Shown here piece by piece: positions 3,186 through 24,095 of a stretch of 64,000 bases of DNA (position 1 is the stretch's first letter; the number at the start of each line of letters is the position of its first letter). The stretch comes from Veillonella seminalis (GTDB lineage Bacteria; Bacillota; Negativicutes; Veillonellales; Veillonellaceae). Location of the stretch: positions 1 to 64,000 of the forward strand of contig NZ_RQUZ01000006.1 in the NCBI RefSeq assembly GCF_003992065.1, given 5' to 3'. Under the pieces are notes generated by a model. It had not been told where the DNA came from. It made no database searches and was given only the letters and a program-made list of their open reading frames with translations. The position numbers and the translations under genes are program-made.

Positions 3186-4871
3186 ATGAGTACGATGGAA
3201 TTATTGCAGCCTGTAGCAAACGCATTTCGAGACCGTATAGATTTGCGTGGCAATTGGTTTTTTGCCTTTGATAAATCAAAGGATAAAACCTATGAAACCG
3301 GCGTGGCGCGACAGATGTCGGTACCGGTACCGGCGGCTTTGCAGGATTTATTTGTAAGTCCTGAGGAGCGCAACTATTGCGGTACTATGTGGTATGAACG
3401 CAATATTTATATTTCGAAACGATGGCTCGGTTCGGATGTCTTTTTGCGTTTTGACGGCATCGGCAATCGTGCGGTTGTGTATGTCAACGGCATGGAGGCG
3501 GGCCGCCATGAAGGGGCGTTTGTGTCGACGGTTATTAACGTGACGCGCCAATTACGCTATGGCGAAGAAAATCGCATTATTGTAAAAGTAAATAATGAAT
3601 TGTCCGCTTATACGCTGCCGGCGGGGCAGGCTGTTACATCACCTAAAGGACGTCGCATAAATCAGCCGAATTTTGATTATGAAGTACCGGCCGGTATCTA
3701 TGGCAATGTTACTTTATATACTGTGCCGACAACGCGTTTGACGGATGTTATGGTTCAGACGGTTGAATTGTCTACTGAACAGGCTGTGGTGCAGTATATG
3801 GCTCATGTACAAGGCAATTGCTTGGTGACGGCAACACTACGCGATCGAGATGGTCGCATTGTAGCTACCGGTGTGGGCGGTAATTCCAAGTTGACTGTTG
3901 AAAAACCGCATATTTGGACTGTAGGCGACGGGTATTTATACACTTTGGAACTTGAAGTGAGCCGTTTGGGCAAACAGCATGATGTGTATCATCAGCGTAT
4001 AGGTATTCGTACCGTAGCGGTTGAAGGCGGTAACTTGATGCTTAACGGAACCGTTGTTCGGTTAAAAGCTACTGAGTTGGTAGCGCCGAATATGGCCTTA
4101 GCTGCGAATCCCGTACAGGTTAAACAACAATTTCAACAGTTGCTCGCTATGGGCGGTAATTGTATTTTCAGTAGCGGTCGTCCGGTTTCACCGGAAGTAT
4201 TACAGCTGGCTGATGAAAACGGTATTCTGGTTGTGGCGGAAATGCCGGCAGCCGGTTTATTGGCTAAAGATTTGCAACCGGGCGAGGCGAACTTCAGTAA
4301 AGCCGATGTTAAATCCAGATTATTGGATACTCATAAAGACACGATAGACTCCTTAATAACTCGTGATAAAAATCATCCGTCCATTATTAGTTGGTCATTG
4401 TTATATACTCCGTTAACGATGATGAAAGAGGATGAAACATACTTTACCGATATTGCCGAGACGGCTCTTCAATGTGATTGGGAAAAACGCCCATTGGCGC
4501 TTACTATTACTCAATCCCTCAGCGATATTTGGGCCGGGAATATGAAAGCATACTCCTTATTAATCTTAAAAACTTGGACTAAGCAATGGAGTGCTGATGT
4601 TGAGATCTTGCAAAGTACCATGTATAAAGAATTGGTTGATTGGGAAGCTAAGCAGCCGGAGAAAGCTCTTGCGGTAGTAATGGGGGCAGATTTATCTTCT
4701 GAGTGTTTCGGCATGGAACATTCCTTTGGCTCGTATGCAACTTACCGCGTAGTTTCTGAAAAAGTACAGGAATTGATTACCATGTTAAGTTCAATGCCGA
4801 ATGTACAGGGGCATTTTCTACAAGGTGATGCGGCAAAATTAGCCGACACATTGAAACAAAGTTGGAATTAA
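3186..4871 (+). CDS. GH2-fold (beta-glucuronidase-like) protein, probably without glycosidase activity
   Basis: 561 residues. The start chosen is the ATG at 3186, 7 bases after TAGGAGGAG; an in-frame TTG sits one codon upstream. The N-terminal GH2 sugar-binding jelly roll is clear (IDLRGNWFFAFD, YCGTMWYERNIYI, FDGIGNRAVVYVNG), followed by an immunoglobulin-like domain and a (beta/alpha)8-like region. In active GH2 enzymes the acid/base lies in NEP after the NHPSI segment. Here NHPSIISWSLLYTPL has Tyr-Thr-Pro (about 407-409). The nucleophile motif (T-E-Y-G) is replaced by VVMG (about 497-500). Both catalytic Glu residues are therefore absent, so it may be a carbohydrate-binding or structural protein. 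No signal peptide is seen. It stands alone between a promoter and a bidirectional terminator. Confidence 0.75.
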   Translation: MSTMELLQPVANAFRDRIDLRGNWFFAFDKSKDKTYETGVARQMSVPVPAALQDLFVSPEERNYCGTMWYERNIYISKRWLGSDVFLRFDGIGNRAVVYVNGMEAGRHEGAFVSTVINVTRQLRYGEENRIIVKVNNELSAYTLPAGQAVTSPKGRRINQPNFDYEVPAGIYGNVTLYTVPTTRLTDVMVQTVELSTEQAVVQYMAHVQGNCLVTATLRDRDGRIVATGVGGNSKLTVEKPHIWTVGDGYLYTLELEVSRLGKQHDVYHQRIGIRTVAVEGGNLMLNGTVVRLKATELVAPNMALAANPVQVKQQFQQLLAMGGNCIFSSGRPVSPEVLQLADENGILVVAEMPAAGLLAKDLQPGEANFSKADVKSRLLDTHKDTIDSLITRDKNHPSIISWSLLYTPLTMMKEDETYFTDIAETALQCDWEKRPLALTITQSLSDIWAGNMKAYSLLILKTWTKQWSADVEILQSTMYKELVDWEAKQPEKALAVVMGADLSSECFGMEHSFGSYATYRVVSEKVQELITMLSSMPNVQGHFLQGDAAKLADTLKQSWN

Positions 4872-4920
4872 ATATATTGAAACGCTATAATTTTTAAATT
4901 TTATATTTCTTAATAAACTA

Positions 4921-4968
4921 AAAGAGGAAAGATAAGTTTTGATTCTTATCTTCCCTCTTATTTTTTTA
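4921..4968. terminator. Bidirectional terminator
   Basis: The hairpin arms are AAAGAGGAAAGATAAG and CTTATCTTCCCTCTT with a short loop. T runs flank it on both strands. It separates the GH2-fold gene from the convergent O-antigen ligase gene. Confidence 0.75.
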
Positions 4969-8117: not shown

Positions 8118-9428
8118 TTATGCACTCGTTACAGACGTGTTATTCAATGATTCTTCAACAACTTTTTCTTCCGCTTCAAAGTGATGATCTTTAGTGAACA
8201 CTTTAAGTGCCACAGCTACGGCCAAGTTCAATACGAACAAAGCACTGAATACGAAGAGCGGACCGCTGTAGCTGTTGGTGCTTTCACGAAGGAAGGATAC
8301 GAGCATAGGACCGGCGATACCGGCGAAGCCCCAAGCTGTTAATACGCGACCGTGAATGGCGCTGAGTGCTTTGGTGCCGAATAAATCGCTGAGATAAGCC
8401 GGCATGCAGGCAAAACCGCCTCCGTAGCAGGTAATAATGGCAAATACGAGGAATTGGAAGAAGAACGAATTGCTCGTATGGCCGAGGGCAAAGAAAGCCA
8501 AGATTTCAATGAGGAAGAACAACATGTAGGTAAAAGGTCGGCCGATGTAGTCGGAAATAGTGGACCAACCGATGCGGCCAAGACCGTTCAAAAGACCGAT
8601 AATACCAACCATGGAAGCGGCTTCCGTAGCGTTCATGCCTACGATTTCCTGAGCCATTGGGGAGGCTACGGCTAATAAGCCGATACCGCAAGTGATGTTG
8701 ATGAAGAAAATCCACCATAAAGCACTGAACTGCCAAGTGCGCATGGCTTCATGAGCGTTCATACCGCGATTGAATAAAGTGTTAGCCGGGCGAGCAGCTG
8801 CAGTAGTTTGTGCTTTTTCAGTACTGTTTGTAGCAGTTGCATCAGTAGTTACAGTTGCTGCATGGTTTGTTGGTGGTTTTAAATATAAGGACGAAAGAGC
8901 CATAATGATGATGTAGGCTACGCCCAGAATTTGGAATGTTTGCACCAAGCTGTATTGTGCCGTTAAGTATTGCATTAAAGGACCGGCGATTAAGGCCGCA
9001 AAACCGAAGCCCATGATAGCCAAACCGGTGGCAAAGCCGCGATTGCGCGGGAAGTATTTAACGAGAGTGGACACCGGTGTGATATAACCGACGCCGAGGC
9101 CGATACCACCGATGACACCATAGAAGATGTAGAGCAAGGTAAGGCTGTGAGCTTCTAAAGCATAGCCGGTGCCCAACATACCGATCCCGAAGAAGAGGGT
9201 ACTCCATAAACCGCTCTTTTTAGGTCCCATTTTTTCAGCCACACTGCCGAGTAAACCGGCGGAAAGACCGAGGAATAAAATAGCCAAGGAGAAGGTCCAA
9301 GTTGTTTCTTTAAGGGACCAACCCATAGCAGCCATGATAGGGCGTGTTAAAACGCTCCAAGCATAGACACTGCCGATAGAAATGTGAATTCCGATAGCCG
9401 CCAAGGCAATTAACCAACGATTTCGCAT
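8118..9428 (-). CDS. OFA-family (oxalate/formate-antiporter type) MFS transporter
   Basis: 436 residues from the ATG at 9428, which follows AAAGGATG; a TTG start 12 codons upstream lacks an RBS. Twelve membrane segments are evident. The start (RNRWLIALAAIGIHISIGSVYAWSVL) and MGPKKSGLW are typical of the OFA branch of the major facilitator superfamily. A hydrophilic loop rich in Thr/Ala (about 190-220) links the two halves. Members carry oxalate/formate or other small monocarboxylates; substrate is not readable from sequence. The leader carries a probable ZTP riboswitch with a terminator, which would tie expression to one-carbon (10-formyl-THF) status and makes a formate-related substrate plausible. 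Confidence 0.8.
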   Translation of the reverse strand: MRNRWLIALAAIGIHISIGSVYAWSVLTRPIMAAMGWSLKETTWTFSLAILFLGLSAGLLGSVAEKMGPKKSGLWSTLFFGIGMLGTGYALEAHSLTLLYIFYGVIGGIGLGVGYITPVSTLVKYFPRNRGFATGLAIMGFGFAALIAGPLMQYLTAQYSLVQTFQILGVAYIIIMALSSLYLKPPTNHAATVTTDATATNSTEKAQTTAAARPANTLFNRGMNAHEAMRTWQFSALWWIFFINITCGIGLLAVASPMAQEIVGMNATEAASMVGIIGLLNGLGRIGWSTISDYIGRPFTYMLFFLIEILAFFALGHTSNSFFFQFLVFAIITCYGGGFACMPAYLSDLFGTKALSAIHGRVLTAWGFAGIAGPMLVSFLRESTNSYSGPLFVFSALFVLNLAVAVALKVFTKDHHFEAEEKVVEESLNNTSVTSA

Positions 9429-9552
9429 ACAATCATCCTTTCTGTAATGAAAGAAGTTGCTCAAAGTCTTTTCAGAAGAGTTATAAATACTTTTAAATAG
9501 GCTTTACTAGTAGTCTTTTGATGATTGAAAGGCAGGTAAAGGCTTTCAAAAT

Positions 9553-9592
9553 ATGCAAAAGACCGCCTGAGCAATCTTCTGCCCAGACGGTC
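9553..9592 (-). terminator. Riboswitch-controlled intrinsic terminator in the OFA leader
   Basis: On the minus strand GACCGTCTGGGCA (9580-9592) pairs with TGCTCAGGCGGTC (9561-9573) and is followed by TTTT. The 5' arm contains the CCGTCTGGGC element that the aptamer needs for its pseudoknot. Ligand binding should therefore prevent the terminator from forming (an ON switch). Confidence 0.8.
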
Positions 9593-9652
9593 GGCGTTTC
9601 TTCGCATACAATACACGTGGTTAATTCCACTAATCCGTCAGCATTGTATGTT
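9581..9652 (-). promoter_or_regulatory. Probable ZTP/ZMP riboswitch (pfl motif) aptamer
   Basis: Minus-strand order: P1 5' strand CATACAATGC (9641-9650), then TGACGG, hairpin GTGG-AATTAA-CCAC, P1 3' strand GTATTGTATG, linker GAAGAAACGCCGA, then CCGTCTGGGC (9581-9590). The last element and the GACGG/CCGTC pseudoknot match the pfl/ZTP consensus as I remember it. The P1 pairing and pseudoknot are seen in the sequence; the family assignment is from memory. Known ZTP switches control purine and one-carbon genes. Confidence 0.75.
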
Positions 9653-9670
9653 GTTCTTAATTGTGAAGTC

Positions 9671-9699
9671 ATTATAACAGTAAAAAAAGAAGCAGTCAA
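9671..9699 (-). promoter_or_regulatory. Consensus promoter for the riboswitch-OFA transcript
   Basis: TTGACT (9694-9699) and TATAAT (9671-9676) on the minus strand have a 17-base spacer. The -35 lies inside the terminator hairpin of the upstream fba gene. Confidence 0.8.
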
Positions 9700-9732
9700 T
9701 CTAAAGATTTAGATAAACTACTTCTTTTTTAG
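9683..9732 (-). terminator. fba terminator overlapping the next promoter
   Basis: On the minus strand AAAAAAGAAGTAGT pairs with ACTGCTTCTTTTTT, with an inner ATCTAAA/TTTAGAT stem, ending in a T run. It lies about 135 bases after the fba stop codon. Confidence 0.65.
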
Positions 9733-12690: not shown

Positions 12691-13809
12691 ATGGATATTG
12701 AGGCTATGCGAGGCGGCTATACGACCGGTTCCTGTGCCACGGCCGGTATGAAGGCAGCTTTAATGGCATTGTTGCAGGAAGAGTATCCGACTCGTGTGAC
12801 GGTGATTAATCCGCAAGATACGCCGATTGAAGTGCCGGTTAAGTCGGTAGAGGTGCTATCCGATACTGAAGCGCGAGCTACTGTGGTTAAAGATGGCGGC
12901 GACGATCCGGATGTAACACACGGCACCGATGTGGTGACTACGGTACAGCTGACGGATGACGGCACGTTGCAGTTTCGAGCCGGTTTCGGCGTCGGCACTG
13001 TAACGAAACCGGGCTTGGCTATGCCACCGGGAGAACCGGCCATTAATCCGGGACCACGCATCATGATGACCACCGTATTTAATGAGTTTTGCACGGCCGG
13101 TCAAGGCGTTATCGTGACGGTATCGGTGCCAAACGGGGAAGTACTGGCGAAGAAAACGCTGAACAGTACGCTCGGCATTGAAGGCGGTATTTCCATTATC
13201 GGCACAACCGGGATTGTGAAGCCCATGAGTGAAGAAGGTTTTAAAAACTCTTTGGTACCTCAGCTCACAGTTATGAAAGCGGCCGGTTATGAAACGGCTG
13301 TGTTGGTACCGGGGCGTATCGGTCAGGAATTGGCCAAGAATGTGCTGGGAATTGCCATTAATCAGATGGCGGAAACGTCTAATTTTATCGGCTTCATGCT
13401 GGAGCAATGCGTGAAAGCCGGTTTTAAAAAGATTGTTATTATCGGTCATATCGGTAAGATTATAAAACTCGCGTCCGGCAGTTTTCATACCCATAATCGT
13501 ATGAGTGACGGCCGAATGGAGACTCTCGTAGCCTATGCGGCACTGGATGGTGCTTCTACTAAAGTGGCTAATGAAATTATGGAGTGTCGCACCACGGAAG
13601 CGGCTATGCCGATTCTGGCACGCGAGCATTTGACGAGCGTTTATCAGCGTGTAGCAGACAGAGCATCTATGCGCTCGGAACGCTATATTGCGAATGAGGC
13701 GGAAGTCGGTATTATTATTGCTACGTTGGACGGCGAAATTTTGGCGGTCGATGAAACGGCTAAGCGTATCGGAGGTGAAGAGCATTGGCAAATACCCTCT
13801 ACGTTGTAG
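12691..13809 (+). CDS. cbiD: Cobalt-precorrin-5B (C1)-methyltransferase
   Basis: 372 residues. The N-terminal GGYTTGSCATAGMKAAL is the CbiD signature; further conserved blocks are GVGTVTKPGLAMPPGEPAINPGP (split here: GVGTVTKPG and AMPPGEPAINPG) and GHIGKIIKLASGSFHTHNRM. CbiD methylates C1 of the cobalt-corrin with S-adenosylmethionine in the oxygen-independent B12 route. An AAAGGAGG RBS precedes the ATG. The end overlaps cbiE by 25 bases, so the two are coupled. It is the first gene of a compact cbiD-E-T-F-G-H-J-C operon. Confidence 0.95.
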   Translation: MDIEAMRGGYTTGSCATAGMKAALMALLQEEYPTRVTVINPQDTPIEVPVKSVEVLSDTEARATVVKDGGDDPDVTHGTDVVTTVQLTDDGTLQFRAGFGVGTVTKPGLAMPPGEPAINPGPRIMMTTVFNEFCTAGQGVIVTVSVPNGEVLAKKTLNSTLGIEGGISIIGTTGIVKPMSEEGFKNSLVPQLTVMKAAGYETAVLVPGRIGQELAKNVLGIAINQMAETSNFIGFMLEQCVKAGFKKIVIIGHIGKIIKLASGSFHTHNRMSDGRMETLVAYAALDGASTKVANEIMECRTTEAAMPILAREHLTSVYQRVADRASMRSERYIANEAEVGIIIATLDGEILAVDETAKRIGGEEHWQIPSTL

Positions 13810-14411
13810 GTATCGGCCCGGGGAATCCCGATTATGTGGTACCGCGCGGTCTTAAATTAATTGAAGAAGCCAAGGTACTCGTCGGGAGTGAACGGTCTTT
13901 ATTGGATTTTGCTCACGAAGGGCAGCTCACGCATTCGGTTACCGGTAAGCTCACTGAATTAGCTCTTTGGATTGAAGAACAGCTTAAGAGCCATGATGTA
14001 GTTGTCATGGTAAGCGGTGATACGGGCTATTACAGCTTATTGCCGTATCTTAAGAAGAAGTTCCCTGATACGCCGATTGATGTGGTGCCGGGCATCAGTT
14101 CCATGACCTTTGCCTTTGCTCGTATCGGCGAAGTGTGGCAGGATGCGGATTTGTTGAGTTTTCACGGTCGTGTCCCGAAAGAGGAATCACTTCGTTATGA
14201 AGCGGGGCGTAAGCTTGGCTTTTTGACGGATAAGGAACATAATCCGGCGGCGATTGCTCAAATTTTAATGGAGCACGGCTGGCCGGCCGATACGAAGTCG
14301 GTGGCTTTAGAACGACTCAGCTATGAAGATGAACGAATTGAGCACGGTACTTTGACGGATATCACAAGACTTTCGGGTTTTGAGCATTCCGTATTTATAG
14401 TGCTGGGGTAA
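13785..14411 (+). CDS. cbiE: Cobalt-precorrin-7 (C5)-methyltransferase
   Basis: 208 residues. The tetrapyrrole methylase fold is shown by VVGIGPGNPDYVVPRG at the N-terminus, VMVSGDTGYYS (about residues 75-85) and VVPGISSMTFAFARIG. In the anaerobic pathway CbiE methylates C5, working with CbiT; in many genomes the two are fused as CobL, here they are separate adjacent genes. It starts inside the 3' end of cbiD with GGAGGTGAAGAGC upstream as RBS. A 70-base gap precedes cbiT. Confidence 0.93.
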   Translation: MANTLYVVGIGPGNPDYVVPRGLKLIEEAKVLVGSERSLLDFAHEGQLTHSVTGKLTELALWIEEQLKSHDVVVMVSGDTGYYSLLPYLKKKFPDTPIDVVPGISSMTFAFARIGEVWQDADLLSFHGRVPKEESLRYEAGRKLGFLTDKEHNPAAIAQILMEHGWPADTKSVALERLSYEDERIEHGTLTDITRLSGFEHSVFIVLG

Positions 14412-14481
14412 ACTTAGGATTATCGGTGAGCGTTGAAGCTCATTTATGACTTTTGAATCTTAATATATTAAGGAGGTATCC

Positions 14482-15096
14482 ATGCGGCATTTTTTCGGCA
14501 TTGAAGATGAAGAATTTATTCGCGGCGATGTGCCTATGACGAAGCGCGAAATTCGTATGGCCGTACTCAATGAAGCGCGTGTGCAGGAGGAGAGTTATGT
14601 TCTTGATGTTGGCGCCGGTACGGGTTCCATTTCCATTGAAGCGGCATTGGGGGCACCGCAAGGGCATGTATATGCTATTGAACGTTTTGCCAAGGGCATC
14701 GAACTTATCAAGGCGAATATGACGAAGTTTGGTGTTAATAATTTAACGGTAATCGAGGCAAAAGCACCGGAAGGCATGGAAGATTTACCGGCCCTTGATG
14801 CCATCATTATCGGCGGCAGTGCGGGCGGTATGGATGCGATTCTCGATGAATCCGAGCGCCTCTTAAAACCGGGTGGCCGTCTTGTCGTAACGGCGGTAAC
14901 CATGGAAACCGGTTACACGATTTTGAAAGCGTTAAAAGGTCGTCCTTTCACCTATGAAGGCTATCAGATGCAAATTAATCGTTTCCGTAAAGCCGGTCCG
15001 TATCATTTGTTGAATCCATTGAGTCCGATTTTTATTGTAACCGCAGTTAAACAGGCTGAGACCGAAACGGCTAATGCTGAAGAAGCAACTAAATAG
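14482..15096 (+). CDS. cbiT: Cobalt-precorrin-6B (C15)-methyltransferase (decarboxylating)
   Basis: 204 residues. A class I SAM-binding fold is visible: VLDVGAGTGSISIEAA (about residues 40-55) and the acidic loop YAIERFAKGIELIKAN. The substrate-entry sequence GDVPMTKREIRMAVL at about residues 17-31 is typical of CbiT. It methylates C15 and decarboxylates the ring C acetate. The start follows AAGGAGG. The last ~15 residues are Glu/Ala/Thr-rich and look disordered. Confidence 0.93.
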   Translation: MRHFFGIEDEEFIRGDVPMTKREIRMAVLNEARVQEESYVLDVGAGTGSISIEAALGAPQGHVYAIERFAKGIELIKANMTKFGVNNLTVIEAKAPEGMEDLPALDAIIIGGSAGGMDAILDESERLLKPGGRLVVTAVTMETGYTILKALKGRPFTYEGYQMQINRFRKAGPYHLLNPLSPIFIVTAVKQAETETANAEEATK

Positions 15097-15196
15097 GTTA
15101 CTGAGAACAGATATAAATCGTTCGTCTGAATATGTCGTTTAGGCGGATGAAGTATATATAACTTGAGGCCGTAAGGCCGGGGAGGTAAACTGTCAC

Positions 15197-16009
15197 ATGA
15201 GTACAGATAAAACAATGTCGGGCGATACTGCCATGACGAATCAAGAAGTACCGGTAGTTCATTTTGTGGGGGCCGGCCCGGGGGATCCGGAGCTGATTAC
15301 CCGCAAAGGTTATCGTTTGGTCAGTGAAGCGGATATCGTAATTTACGCCGGTTCTTTGGTAAATCCGGATATTTTGGCGGCTTGTAAAAAAGGTTGCGAA
15401 ATTTTTAACAGTGCAACCATGAACCTCGATGAAGTAATCGAAGTTATGAAGCGCGGTGCCGCGGAAGGCAAAGCCATCGTTCGTTTGCACACCGGTGACC
15501 CTGCTATTTACGGGGCCATTCAGGAACAGATGGACCGCTTGAAAGAATTGAACATTACCTATGCGGTAATTCCGGGCGTAAGTTCGTTCCTTGCTACGGC
15601 GGCTGCTTTAAAACAGGAATACACCTTACCTAATGTATCCCAAACAGTTATTATTACGCGTATGGAAGGCCGTACGCCGATGCCACCGAAGGAAAAATTG
15701 GGTATGCTCGCCGCTCATGAAGCAACCATGTGTATTTTCCTCAGTGTGCAGATGATTGATAAAGTAGTGGAAGAACTTGTTAACGGCGGTTACAGCCCTA
15801 AGACGCCGGTTGCGATTGTGGTAAAAGCATCCTGGCCGGATCAACGCATCATTCGCGGCACTTTAGAAACGATTGCCGATATCGTGAGTCAGGAAGGCGT
15901 ATTGCGTCAGGCCATGATCGTGGTAAGTAAAGTTCTTGACAGTGATTATGAATTGTCCAAGTTGTATGACAAGGGCTTCAGTCACATGTACCGTAGTGCC
16001 AAGGACTAA
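15197..16009 (+). CDS. cbiF: Cobalt-precorrin-4 (C11)-methyltransferase
   Basis: 270 residues. Tetrapyrrole methylase motifs are VHFVGAGPGDPELITRKG (after a ~15-residue polar N-terminal tail), YAGSLVNPDIL, RLHTGDPAIYGAIQEQ and VIPGVSSFLATAAAL. The YAGSLV and GDPAIYG blocks single out the CbiF/CobM group. CbiF methylates C11 of cobalt-precorrin-4. The ATG at 15197 follows GGGGAGGT. The 100-base gap upstream contains a small GGCCGTAAGGCC hairpin but no terminator. Confidence 0.94.
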   Translation: MSTDKTMSGDTAMTNQEVPVVHFVGAGPGDPELITRKGYRLVSEADIVIYAGSLVNPDILAACKKGCEIFNSATMNLDEVIEVMKRGAAEGKAIVRLHTGDPAIYGAIQEQMDRLKELNITYAVIPGVSSFLATAAALKQEYTLPNVSQTVIITRMEGRTPMPPKEKLGMLAAHEATMCIFLSVQMIDKVVEELVNGGYSPKTPVAIVVKASWPDQRIIRGTLETIADIVSQEGVLRQAMIVVSKVLDSDYELSKLYDKGFSHMYRSAKD

Positions 16010-22662: not shown

Positions 22663-23682
22663 TTATTTAGCGTCGTTTTCAAGGGCTTCCCAAGCTTCTT
22701 GAGCATGAGCGGCAAACAAGTCACGGACTTTTTGATTTTCGCCAAGACCATGAATGTAAGTGTCTACTTTGAAGCCGTCAGCCATCAAGATGGATTTATG
22801 GGAATCAGGTTCGTCACCGGACATATCATTGTTAGCATGGTCACCGGCTACCATCATGAATGGCATAAGGGTTACATGGTTAATGCCTTTAGCTTTTAAT
22901 TGAGGGATAATGTCTTCAAGACTTGGCCAACCTTCTACAGTGTAGATGTAAGTGTTTTTAAGACCTGCAGATTCCAAGCGATCTTGGATTACAGCGTAGT
23001 AAGCGTTGGAAGGATCAGGAGTACCATGAGCCATAATAAGAACAGCGTCTTTAGGACCAACTTTAGGGAACTGAGTAGCTACAGCTTGTACTGTTTTAGC
23101 GATATCGTCAGTTTGACCTTCCTGGCCCATCCAGTACATGAGTGGTGTACCGAATGTCATTTTTTTGAAGTTATGTTTGTACTGGTTGTAAACAGCGGTT
23201 TTGTAGTTGTATTCGATACCAGGGATTACGTCAAGAGTTGCCAAAGCAACGCGAGTGTAACCTTCAGCTTTTAATTGATCAAGAGCTTCTTCAGGGGTAG
23301 GGTAAGTGATACCTTCTTTAGCTTTGATGCGGTCGATAATGATATGGGATGTGAAAGCAGTTACTACTTTTACGCCCGGATGTTGTTCCTGAATTTCTTT
23401 AACGGTAGCACCAATTGTTTTAGCACGAGTGTCAGTGAAAGTAGTACCAAAGCTCATTACTACGATAGCATCTTTGTTTGGTGCTTTAGCCAATACAGGA
23501 TCGGTTGTGTTGTAAGTACGAACACCGATTTCAGTTGCTTCCAATAATGCAGGTGTAGCCGTTGTTACTTCATCACTTAATTTGTAAGCTGCATCTGCTT
23601 GGGTACCAAGGAATCCGAAACCTGTTAATGCGGCCACTGCCAACGTTGTAGCTAATGCTTTCTTGAAAATTTGTTTACTCAT
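22663..23682 (-). CDS. cbiK: Exported sirohydrochlorin cobaltochelatase (CbiK type with signal peptide)
   Basis: 339 residues from the ATG at 23682 after GAGGAG; an in-frame GTG three codons upstream is also possible. A Sec signal peptide is clear (KKALATTLAVAALTGFGFLG, then QADA). The mature part is CbiK-like: VVMSFGTTFTDTR, the metal His in LIMAHGTPDPSNAYY, and a second in MMVAGDHANNDMSGDEPDS. Periplasmic CbiK forms are known in sulfate reducers, where export suggests roles beyond B12 synthesis such as metal or haem handling. A cobalamin riboswitch and terminator precede it, so it is repressed when B12 is plentiful. Confidence 0.9.
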   Translation of the reverse strand: MSKQIFKKALATTLAVAALTGFGFLGTQADAAYKLSDEVTTATPALLEATEIGVRTYNTTDPVLAKAPNKDAIVVMSFGTTFTDTRAKTIGATVKEIQEQHPGVKVVTAFTSHIIIDRIKAKEGITYPTPEEALDQLKAEGYTRVALATLDVIPGIEYNYKTAVYNQYKHNFKKMTFGTPLMYWMGQEGQTDDIAKTVQAVATQFPKVGPKDAVLIMAHGTPDPSNAYYAVIQDRLESAGLKNTYIYTVEGWPSLEDIIPQLKAKGINHVTLMPFMMVAGDHANNDMSGDEPDSHKSILMADGFKVDTYIHGLGENQKVRDLFAAHAQEAWEALENDAK

Positions 23683-23746
23683 TTCATTCACTCCTCGTGA
23701 TAAAAAGAAGATTAAAAAAATAAAACTAAAAAATAAAATTAAATAC

Positions 23747-23775
23747 AAAAAAACCTCTGCCCACGCGAGCAGAGG
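23747..23775 (-). terminator. Terminator between the cobalamin riboswitch and cbiK
   Basis: On the minus strand CCTCTGCTCGCG-TGGGCAGAGG forms a tight hairpin followed by seven T. It is the likely expression platform of the riboswitch. Confidence 0.85.
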
Positions 23776-23895: not shown

Positions 23896-24086
23896 TAACC
23901 TCGCCATCGTTCGTGGGTTATCGGCAATCCATCAAGGCAGGTCTTCTGGCTCAAGTTCAACGCAACAATCACCTTCCCGGAAAGTTCCAGTGGCATCTTG
24001 ATTGTGCTCCCTCTTACAGCGGCGGGACCGCGGCAGCTTTTACTGCTCTTCTCTTTTAAGTCGTGCACCTTGAAGGTCGTATTCAT
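23896..24086 (-). promoter_or_regulatory. Cobalamin riboswitch upstream of exported cbiK
   Basis: On the minus strand the leader shows the conserved elements of the AdoCbl class in order: AAGGTGCA near 24068, GCCGCGGTCCCGCCGCTGT, GAGGGAGC, GCCACTGG (the B12-box core region), CCGGGAAGGTG, and GAGCCAGAAGACCTGCC. It lies between a consensus promoter and a terminator ahead of the gene. The elements are seen directly; the mechanism is known for the family. Confidence 0.93.
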
Positions 24087-24095
24087 TTGATAATC

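Follow-up and report, generated by a model that had tools for sequence, protein, structure and literature searches.

In the stretch of Veillonella seminalis DNA analysed here (64,000 nucleotides, referred to below as the window), the leader of a transporter gene resembles a ZMP/ZTP riboswitch, whereas the targets named in the accounts of this RNA class cited below are purH, fhs, pfl, glyA, folD and other purine or THF genes. The locus raises the questions of whether the RNA is a true member of the class, how widely its pairing with a carrier is shared, and which substrate the carrier moves, and in which direction.

The leader RNA and its terminator

The gene in question encodes an MFS monocarboxylate-type transporter of 436 aa and occupies 8118-9428 of the minus strand, with an ATG at 9428 and AAGGA at 9440-9436. 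The list of open reading frames gives a longer form that starts at a TTG (9464); we chose the ATG because relatives, too, have their start at this (K)RNRW-type motif. On the 3' side, 293 nt separate the gene from a flippase-like one.

An earlier note on this DNA had placed a ZTP riboswitch in the leader, within 9550-9700, and had proposed a covariance-model scan of the minus strand. When the whole window was searched with cmscan, RF01750 (ZMP/ZTP) matched the minus strand at 9655-9574 with 51.8 bits, above the gathering score of 39. The riboswitch is therefore where it was expected, although the aptamer proper (9574-9655) is narrower than the interval that had been given, which does contain it. 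The match covers the full length of the model (1-86), has an E value of 1.5e-5 for 64 kb x 4227 families, and is the sole RF01750 match in the 2.25 Mb genome of the window at E 0.001. The leader of 116 nt folds at -38.7 kcal/mol (z = -4.89), and none of 200 shuffled sequences was equally low. In the minimum-energy fold, the 5' arm of P1 (9641-9650, minus strand, as are all elements of the leader) pairs with the 3' arm (9605-9614), and P2 is formed by 9630-9627 with 9620-9617; both arms of P1 are further supported by covariation among transporter-linked relatives. The pseudoknot, which links the P1-P2 junction to the P3 loop, has the strands GACGG at 9635-9639 and CCGTC at 9586-9590, so that the P1 stem and the pfl/ZTP pseudoknot pairing described in the earlier note are both present.

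CCGTC is common to the aptamer and to the 5' arm of an intrinsic terminator, another point on which the earlier description was correct. The terminator stem-loop at 9592-9561 (minimum free energy -23.0 kcal/mol), with a U run at 9560-9557, may be written GACCGTCTGGGC...GCTCAGGCGGTC-TTTT and contains 9590-9586. Two terminator-like sites, mutually overlapping, were returned by the scan, compared with a mean of 0.1 for shuffled sequences. This stem-loop is the putative expression platform, and it would compete with the 3' part of the aptamer. Upstream, at 9671-9699, lies a promoter of the sigma-70 type, TTGACT-17 nt-TATAAT, with a TG ahead of its -10 element; it makes 11 of 12 matches and is the best of four promoter-like sites in 501 bases, where shuffling gave a mean of 1.7. 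Inspection by eye also shows that this promoter overlaps an inverted repeat and T run, which may end the upstream aldolase transcript; the terminator scan called no terminator there. From the terminator stem to the ATG (window 9560-9429) there are 132 nt, with a TTGAAAG/CTTTCAA inverted repeat that is also found at L002 and L004, and in most other carrier-linked copies the gene start is nearer to the aptamer than in the window.

As described for the ZTP class, the terminator overlaps the 3' part of the aptamer, and an ON switch was predicted (Weinberg 2010, PMC2864571). ZMP binding and antitermination have been established for the class (PMC7266159, PMC7337938), and the logic of an ON switch is given in two of these accounts (PMC2864571, PMC7337938). 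The window RNA shares with the known ZTP riboswitches the model match, P1, P2, P3, the pseudoknot and a terminator that overlaps the 3' part; the difference lies in the transporter as target. Judged from its sequence, this RNA is an ordinary ZMP/ZTP riboswitch and a genuine member of the family, and the leader has the predicted architecture of a standard ZTP transcriptional ON switch. Control of the transporter by the riboswitch, as the earlier note had it, is supported at the level of predicted transcriptional coupling by the terminator, the promoter and the conserved gene link presented below.

The 41 carrier-linked copies found in the GTDB order served to build a covariance model (R1, 12 pairs). 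In all 41 of these copies the GACGG/CCGTC pseudoknot is invariant; covariation is provided by a Bacillota MAG (L076), both copies of which read GGCGG/CCGCC, a double change that preserves the pairing. Beside the inner loop, six P1 positions form standard pairs in 26-29 of the 29 distinct rows, with as many as five types of pair. Transporter-linked (40/41) and other (30/31) copies of the order share the core GCCGACCGTCTGGGC, and a scripted rule found a terminator that includes the pseudoknot strand in 37/41 and 31/31 of these copies, respectively (G001 left out of both comparisons). Four copies fall outside the rule: by eye, three of them (L141, L161 and L173) have a hairpin with a short T run, and the fourth (L175) has another G+C-rich hairpin. 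L076 is unusual in possessing two complete, near-identical ZTP units in tandem before the carrier gene (4716-4797 and 4845-4926); a separate terminator-like hairpin comes after each unit.

A chance match is ruled out by the score, the terminator and the conservation in 41/41 copies. It might also be supposed that the aptamer has decayed or changed and has lost its response to ZMP. With its 51.8 bits the window copy is indeed outscored by 30 of the order's 32 non-carrier copies, which have 56-63 bits, and by the carrier-linked copies in family f3, and the copies under the gathering score comprise two of the 41 carrier-linked ones (G057 and G058) together with the PFL-linked copy of G001. However, the aptamers that precede Fhs and AICAR transformylase have the same core, covariation is seen in P1 and, at L076, in the pseudoknot, and the terminator has been retained; we consider decay very improbable.

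Elsewhere in the window, a cobalamin riboswitch at 23919-24087 on the minus strand (86.9 bits, cut-off 31.5) stands ahead of an ORF at 22663-23748(-), which resembles a cobaltochelatase of the CbiK kind. Past this ORF is one resembling an ABC substrate-binding protein, and ORFs resembling cbi genes are found at 12691-16009(+).

Distribution of the riboswitch-carrier pair

At E 0.001 there are 73 ZTP matches in the order, distributed over 48 of its 61 genomes; 70 exceed the gathering score and the other three are the low-scoring copies of G057, G058 and G001. The first gene downstream of these 73 riboswitches is the carrier in 41 cases, AICAR transformylase in 15, Fhs in 14 and PFL in 3. Here and in the wider samples of class and phylum, the next-gene classes derive from blastp clustering or from tblastn against four proteins, with just four representatives named by a model. 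An ortholog of the carrier (E < 1e-100) is present in 41 of the 61 genomes, and in every one of the 41 it stands behind a ZTP riboswitch. In seven genomes the riboswitch occurs without the carrier, in 13 both are absent, and two distant paralogs (29-30% identity; G043 and G055) have no ZTP match nearby.

The pairing extends beyond the order. ZTP matches occur in 221 of 300 genomes of the class, 173 of these lying outside the order. One place was hand-picked from each of 60 of the 173 genomes, among the matches listed (to E 7.6e-9) and with a bias towards high scores; the next gene was the carrier in 15 of these places, PFL in 24, AICAR transformylase in 14, Fhs in 3 and another gene in 4. Fourteen of the 15 carriers show at least 60% identity and one (L213) shows 37%. 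Outside the class, we sampled 40 places from 38 genomes, the higher-scoring ones of at least 69, and these gave PFL 27 times, AICAR transformylase 3 times, Fhs once and other genes 9 times; at E 1e-8 none of the 40 has a relative of the carrier downstream of the riboswitch.

Several individual loci deserve mention for the ORFs that follow the RNA. At L191 and L238 the largest ORF near the ZTP motif (+419/420 nt) resembles, from a look at its sequence, a YchF-type GTPase, and at L236 (+169 nt) a Rex-type redox repressor. At L264, L274 and L275, all outside the class, ZTP lies ahead of an ORF of 235-237 aa that resembles an archaeal-type IMP cyclohydrolase.

A complementary approach is to start from the carrier. 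Of 568 loci with related carriers the best 80 were taken, all of them named; 79 have upstream DNA and 66 of these have a ZTP motif there, including weaker ones at L053 (37.8 bits) and L066 (29.1 bits). In the same set Veillonella ratti provides the nearest named long match to the window's carrier (93% over 363 residues), and ZTP-led loci among the named matches listed include Veillonella, Dialister, Megasphaera, Selenomonas and Phascolarctobacterium. The 13 of the 79 loci that have no ZTP motif comprise 11 Bacilli, one MAG (L097) and one Mitsuokella, and an Rfam scan of nine of the 13 (L083, L086, L090 and L094 left out) found no ZTP at the gathering score. A tree was made from the window's carrier and 73 sequences, which remained of 144 after thinning at 90% identity; it has a midpoint root, and L213 is on a very long branch. 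In this tree 65 ZTP-led carriers and L092 separate from the Bacilli carriers with a support of 91/100, the first figure falling short of the usual 95. This split between Negativicutes and Bacilli, together with a leader that L092 alone of the former lacks, suggests that the pairing of riboswitch and carrier is old. L092 is the Mitsuokella jalaludinii locus, at which the carrier is 58% identical, has no ZTP leader and has Ser at pocket position Tyr335; it is possibly a paralog with another substrate.

Gene neighbourhood offers little to account for this association. In 9 of the 61 carrier loci whose next ORF could be read, it lies on the same strand within 100 nt, and in a crude ORF reading of the genes adjacent to 66 loci no shared neighbour or operon partner was prominent, the largest cluster having four members. 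The carrier gene usually stands alone, and with so few close same-strand neighbours and such small clusters, synteny does not explain the riboswitch-carrier link. Within its bacterial class, the carrier is a typical ZTP target.

The carrier and its substrate pocket

The earlier note had called the product an OFA transporter. It is a transporter, with a Pfam match to MFS_1, but the OFA label is only partly borne out. First, both OFA models are missed, with 184.4 bits for TIGR00890 (cut-off 374.85) and 117.4 bits for TIGR04259 (cut-off 335). Second, the NCBIfam model NF049980 (SfMCT, L-lactate MFS transporter) is passed with 380.6 bits against a cut-off of 320. Third, the lysine of OxlT discussed below is replaced by tryptophan. 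Among relatives of solved structure, SfMCT of Syntrophobacter (PDB 6g9x) is the best with 128.4 bits, and OxlT (PDB 8hpj) is second with 61.1 bits.

The register of the pocket was read by eye from pairwise alignments with these two proteins and followed through 132 alignment rows, which include near-copies and repeats of one gene fetched twice. As reported for SfMCT, the carboxylate is held by Arg280, which Asn276 positions, and by Tyr119, and the substrate is confined by Leu145 and Phe335 (PMC6573034). The equivalents of Arg280, Asn276, Tyr119, Tyr331 and Phe335 are R285, N281, Y115, Y335 and F339 in the carrier, and they are present in 132/132 rows. The position of Leu145, on the other hand, is Phe141 in all 132 rows, Leu28 is Val, His250 is Val in 119/132 and Arg256 is Gln in 130/132. 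The change from Leu145 to Phe should narrow the pocket; since it is found in the Bacilli homologs as well, this residue does not separate the ZTP-led carriers from those of Bacilli. And because the carrier occurs without a ZTP leader in Bacilli, its substrate must make sense there too.

According to the OxlT account, oxalate is held by Arg272 and Lys355, the latter conserved in the OFA family and essential, and Gln34 is strictly conserved in that family (PMC10070484). The carrier keeps the equivalents of Arg272, Asn268, Tyr35 and Tyr124, but Lys355 is replaced by Trp366 (Trp in 130/132 rows, with 2 gaps), Gln34 by Val21 (Val in 132/132), Trp324 by Tyr, Tyr328 by Phe and Trp352 by Leu. It retains the single-arginine pocket of SfMCT, and the second base of OxlT is missing. 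We have rejected the idea that the carrier is a genuine OxlT-type antiporter of oxalate and formate: TIGR00890 and TIGR04259 do match below their cut-offs and OxlT is the second solved relative, but both models are missed by a wide margin and neither Lys355 nor Gln34 is preserved, so that such an antiporter is hardly credible. Carriers of this kind now bear lactate or oxalate/formate names and are perhaps misnamed. The residues described above point to a small monocarboxylate as the probable substrate.

Which monocarboxylate this might be is a separate matter, and the main rival to formate is lactate or pyruvate. The riboswitch would be the same, the carrier would move L-lactate or pyruvate as a proton symporter of the SfMCT/MCT type, and a shortage of 10-formyl-THF would adjust carbon uptake; pyruvate would feed PFL and hence the supply of formate. 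The passing of NF049980, the place of SfMCT as best solved relative and the retention of its Arg, Asn, Tyr119, Tyr331 and Phe335 are what this proposal would predict. Of the linear unsubstituted acids, propionate and butyrate alone competed with lactate on SfMCT, and the authors conclude that substrates need at least three carbons, which counts against formate; the words formate, formic and acetate are absent from the main text of that paper (PMC6573034). The phenylalanine present in every row at the Leu145 position, which should leave less room, argues in the opposite direction, as do the loss of His250 and Arg256 from most rows and the fact that the remaining main targets of the riboswitch work on formate or on formyl groups. 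Further, in families f2 (12 genomes) and f4 (4 genomes) a PFL-like gene is found in 0/16 genomes and Fhs in 16/16, yet 12/16 keep the ZTP-led carrier, and in these families pyruvate could not become formate by the PFL route. On balance we regard lactate or pyruvate as an unlikely substrate.

A proposed role in formate supply within the ZTP regulon

The tallies of downstream genes show that nearly all the co-targets of this riboswitch make formate, activate it or spend a formyl group. Since the main co-targets, PFL, Fhs and AICAR transformylase, are concerned with just these steps, formate import is the simplest choice for the carrier, and the connection to formate and 10-formyl-THF drawn in the earlier note is supported. 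That note had left supply and export of formate side by side as the process responding to ZMP/ZTP. An ON switch that answers a shortage of 10-formyl-THF argues for supply, because switching on export during such a shortage would make it worse. Export of formate, or its exchange for another anion, is suggested by the distant relative OxlT, which is reported to release formate in exchange (PMC10070484), and by the genome of the window, which has a PFL-like gene (without a ZTP riboswitch) and in which no FNT (FocA-type) formate channel was found. The f2 and f4 genomes, in which there is no PFL-like gene, do not fit with this role, and we think export or exchange improbable.

It is more probable than these alternatives, and in our opinion likely, that an ON-type ZTP riboswitch controls a monocarboxylate carrier that is a formate importer feeding Fhs. 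In the scheme that we infer for the working of this copy, and for the substrate, proton coupling and transport direction of its carrier, ZMP/ZTP would accumulate when 10-formyl-THF runs short and would bind the nascent aptamer, stabilising the GACGG:CCGUC pseudoknot and P3. These would withhold CCGUCUGGGC from the terminator, so that transcription would run on into the carrier gene. The carrier would most likely import formate, with a proton, Fhs would convert this formate to 10-formyl-THF, and with 10-formyl-THF available AICAR (ZMP) would be formylated and the alarm would fall.

Gene content provides points both for and against such an importer. In its favour, Fhs is present in 60/61 genomes of the order, and the genome of the window gave no FNT match; against it, the PFL-like gene of that genome has no ZTP riboswitch. 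A need for formate due to the absence of FolD is not borne out, as FolD is present in 61/61, and formate would therefore not be the sole route to 10-formyl-THF. Also against the importer, in the 61 genomes the carrier is not correlated with the absence of PFL (it is present in 16/21 genomes without PFL and in 25/40 with it; Fisher p 0.39). FNT formate channels (FocA/FNT, PF01226), which resemble the carrier in the proposed transport of formate but belong to another protein family, were found in 26/61 genomes, and the carrier is not correlated with their absence either (18/26 with FNT, 23/35 without; p 1.0).

The main paper on the ZTP riboswitch class is that of Kim, Nelson and Breaker from 2015, which may mention such a carrier; in the literature searched, by titles and the first parts of abstracts, no ZTP riboswitch on a carrier of this kind is described. 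The riboswitch itself is ordinary; the novelty lies in the addition to the ZTP regulon of a conserved arm for transport, and in a substrate for the carrier that can be tested. More broadly, the Negativicutes clade of MCT-like carriers may well consist of proton-coupled formate importers switched on by ZMP. If this is true, the uptake of formate would join PFL (making), Fhs (activation) and AICAR transformylase (use) as a fourth arm of the regulon, and the importers would form a family unlike the FNT channels and distinct from OxlT. The riboswitch gives a strong clue to what a large carrier family in gut and oral Negativicutes transports, and if the carrier is a formate importer, a single RNA would connect purine and folate status with the cross-feeding of formate in these communities.
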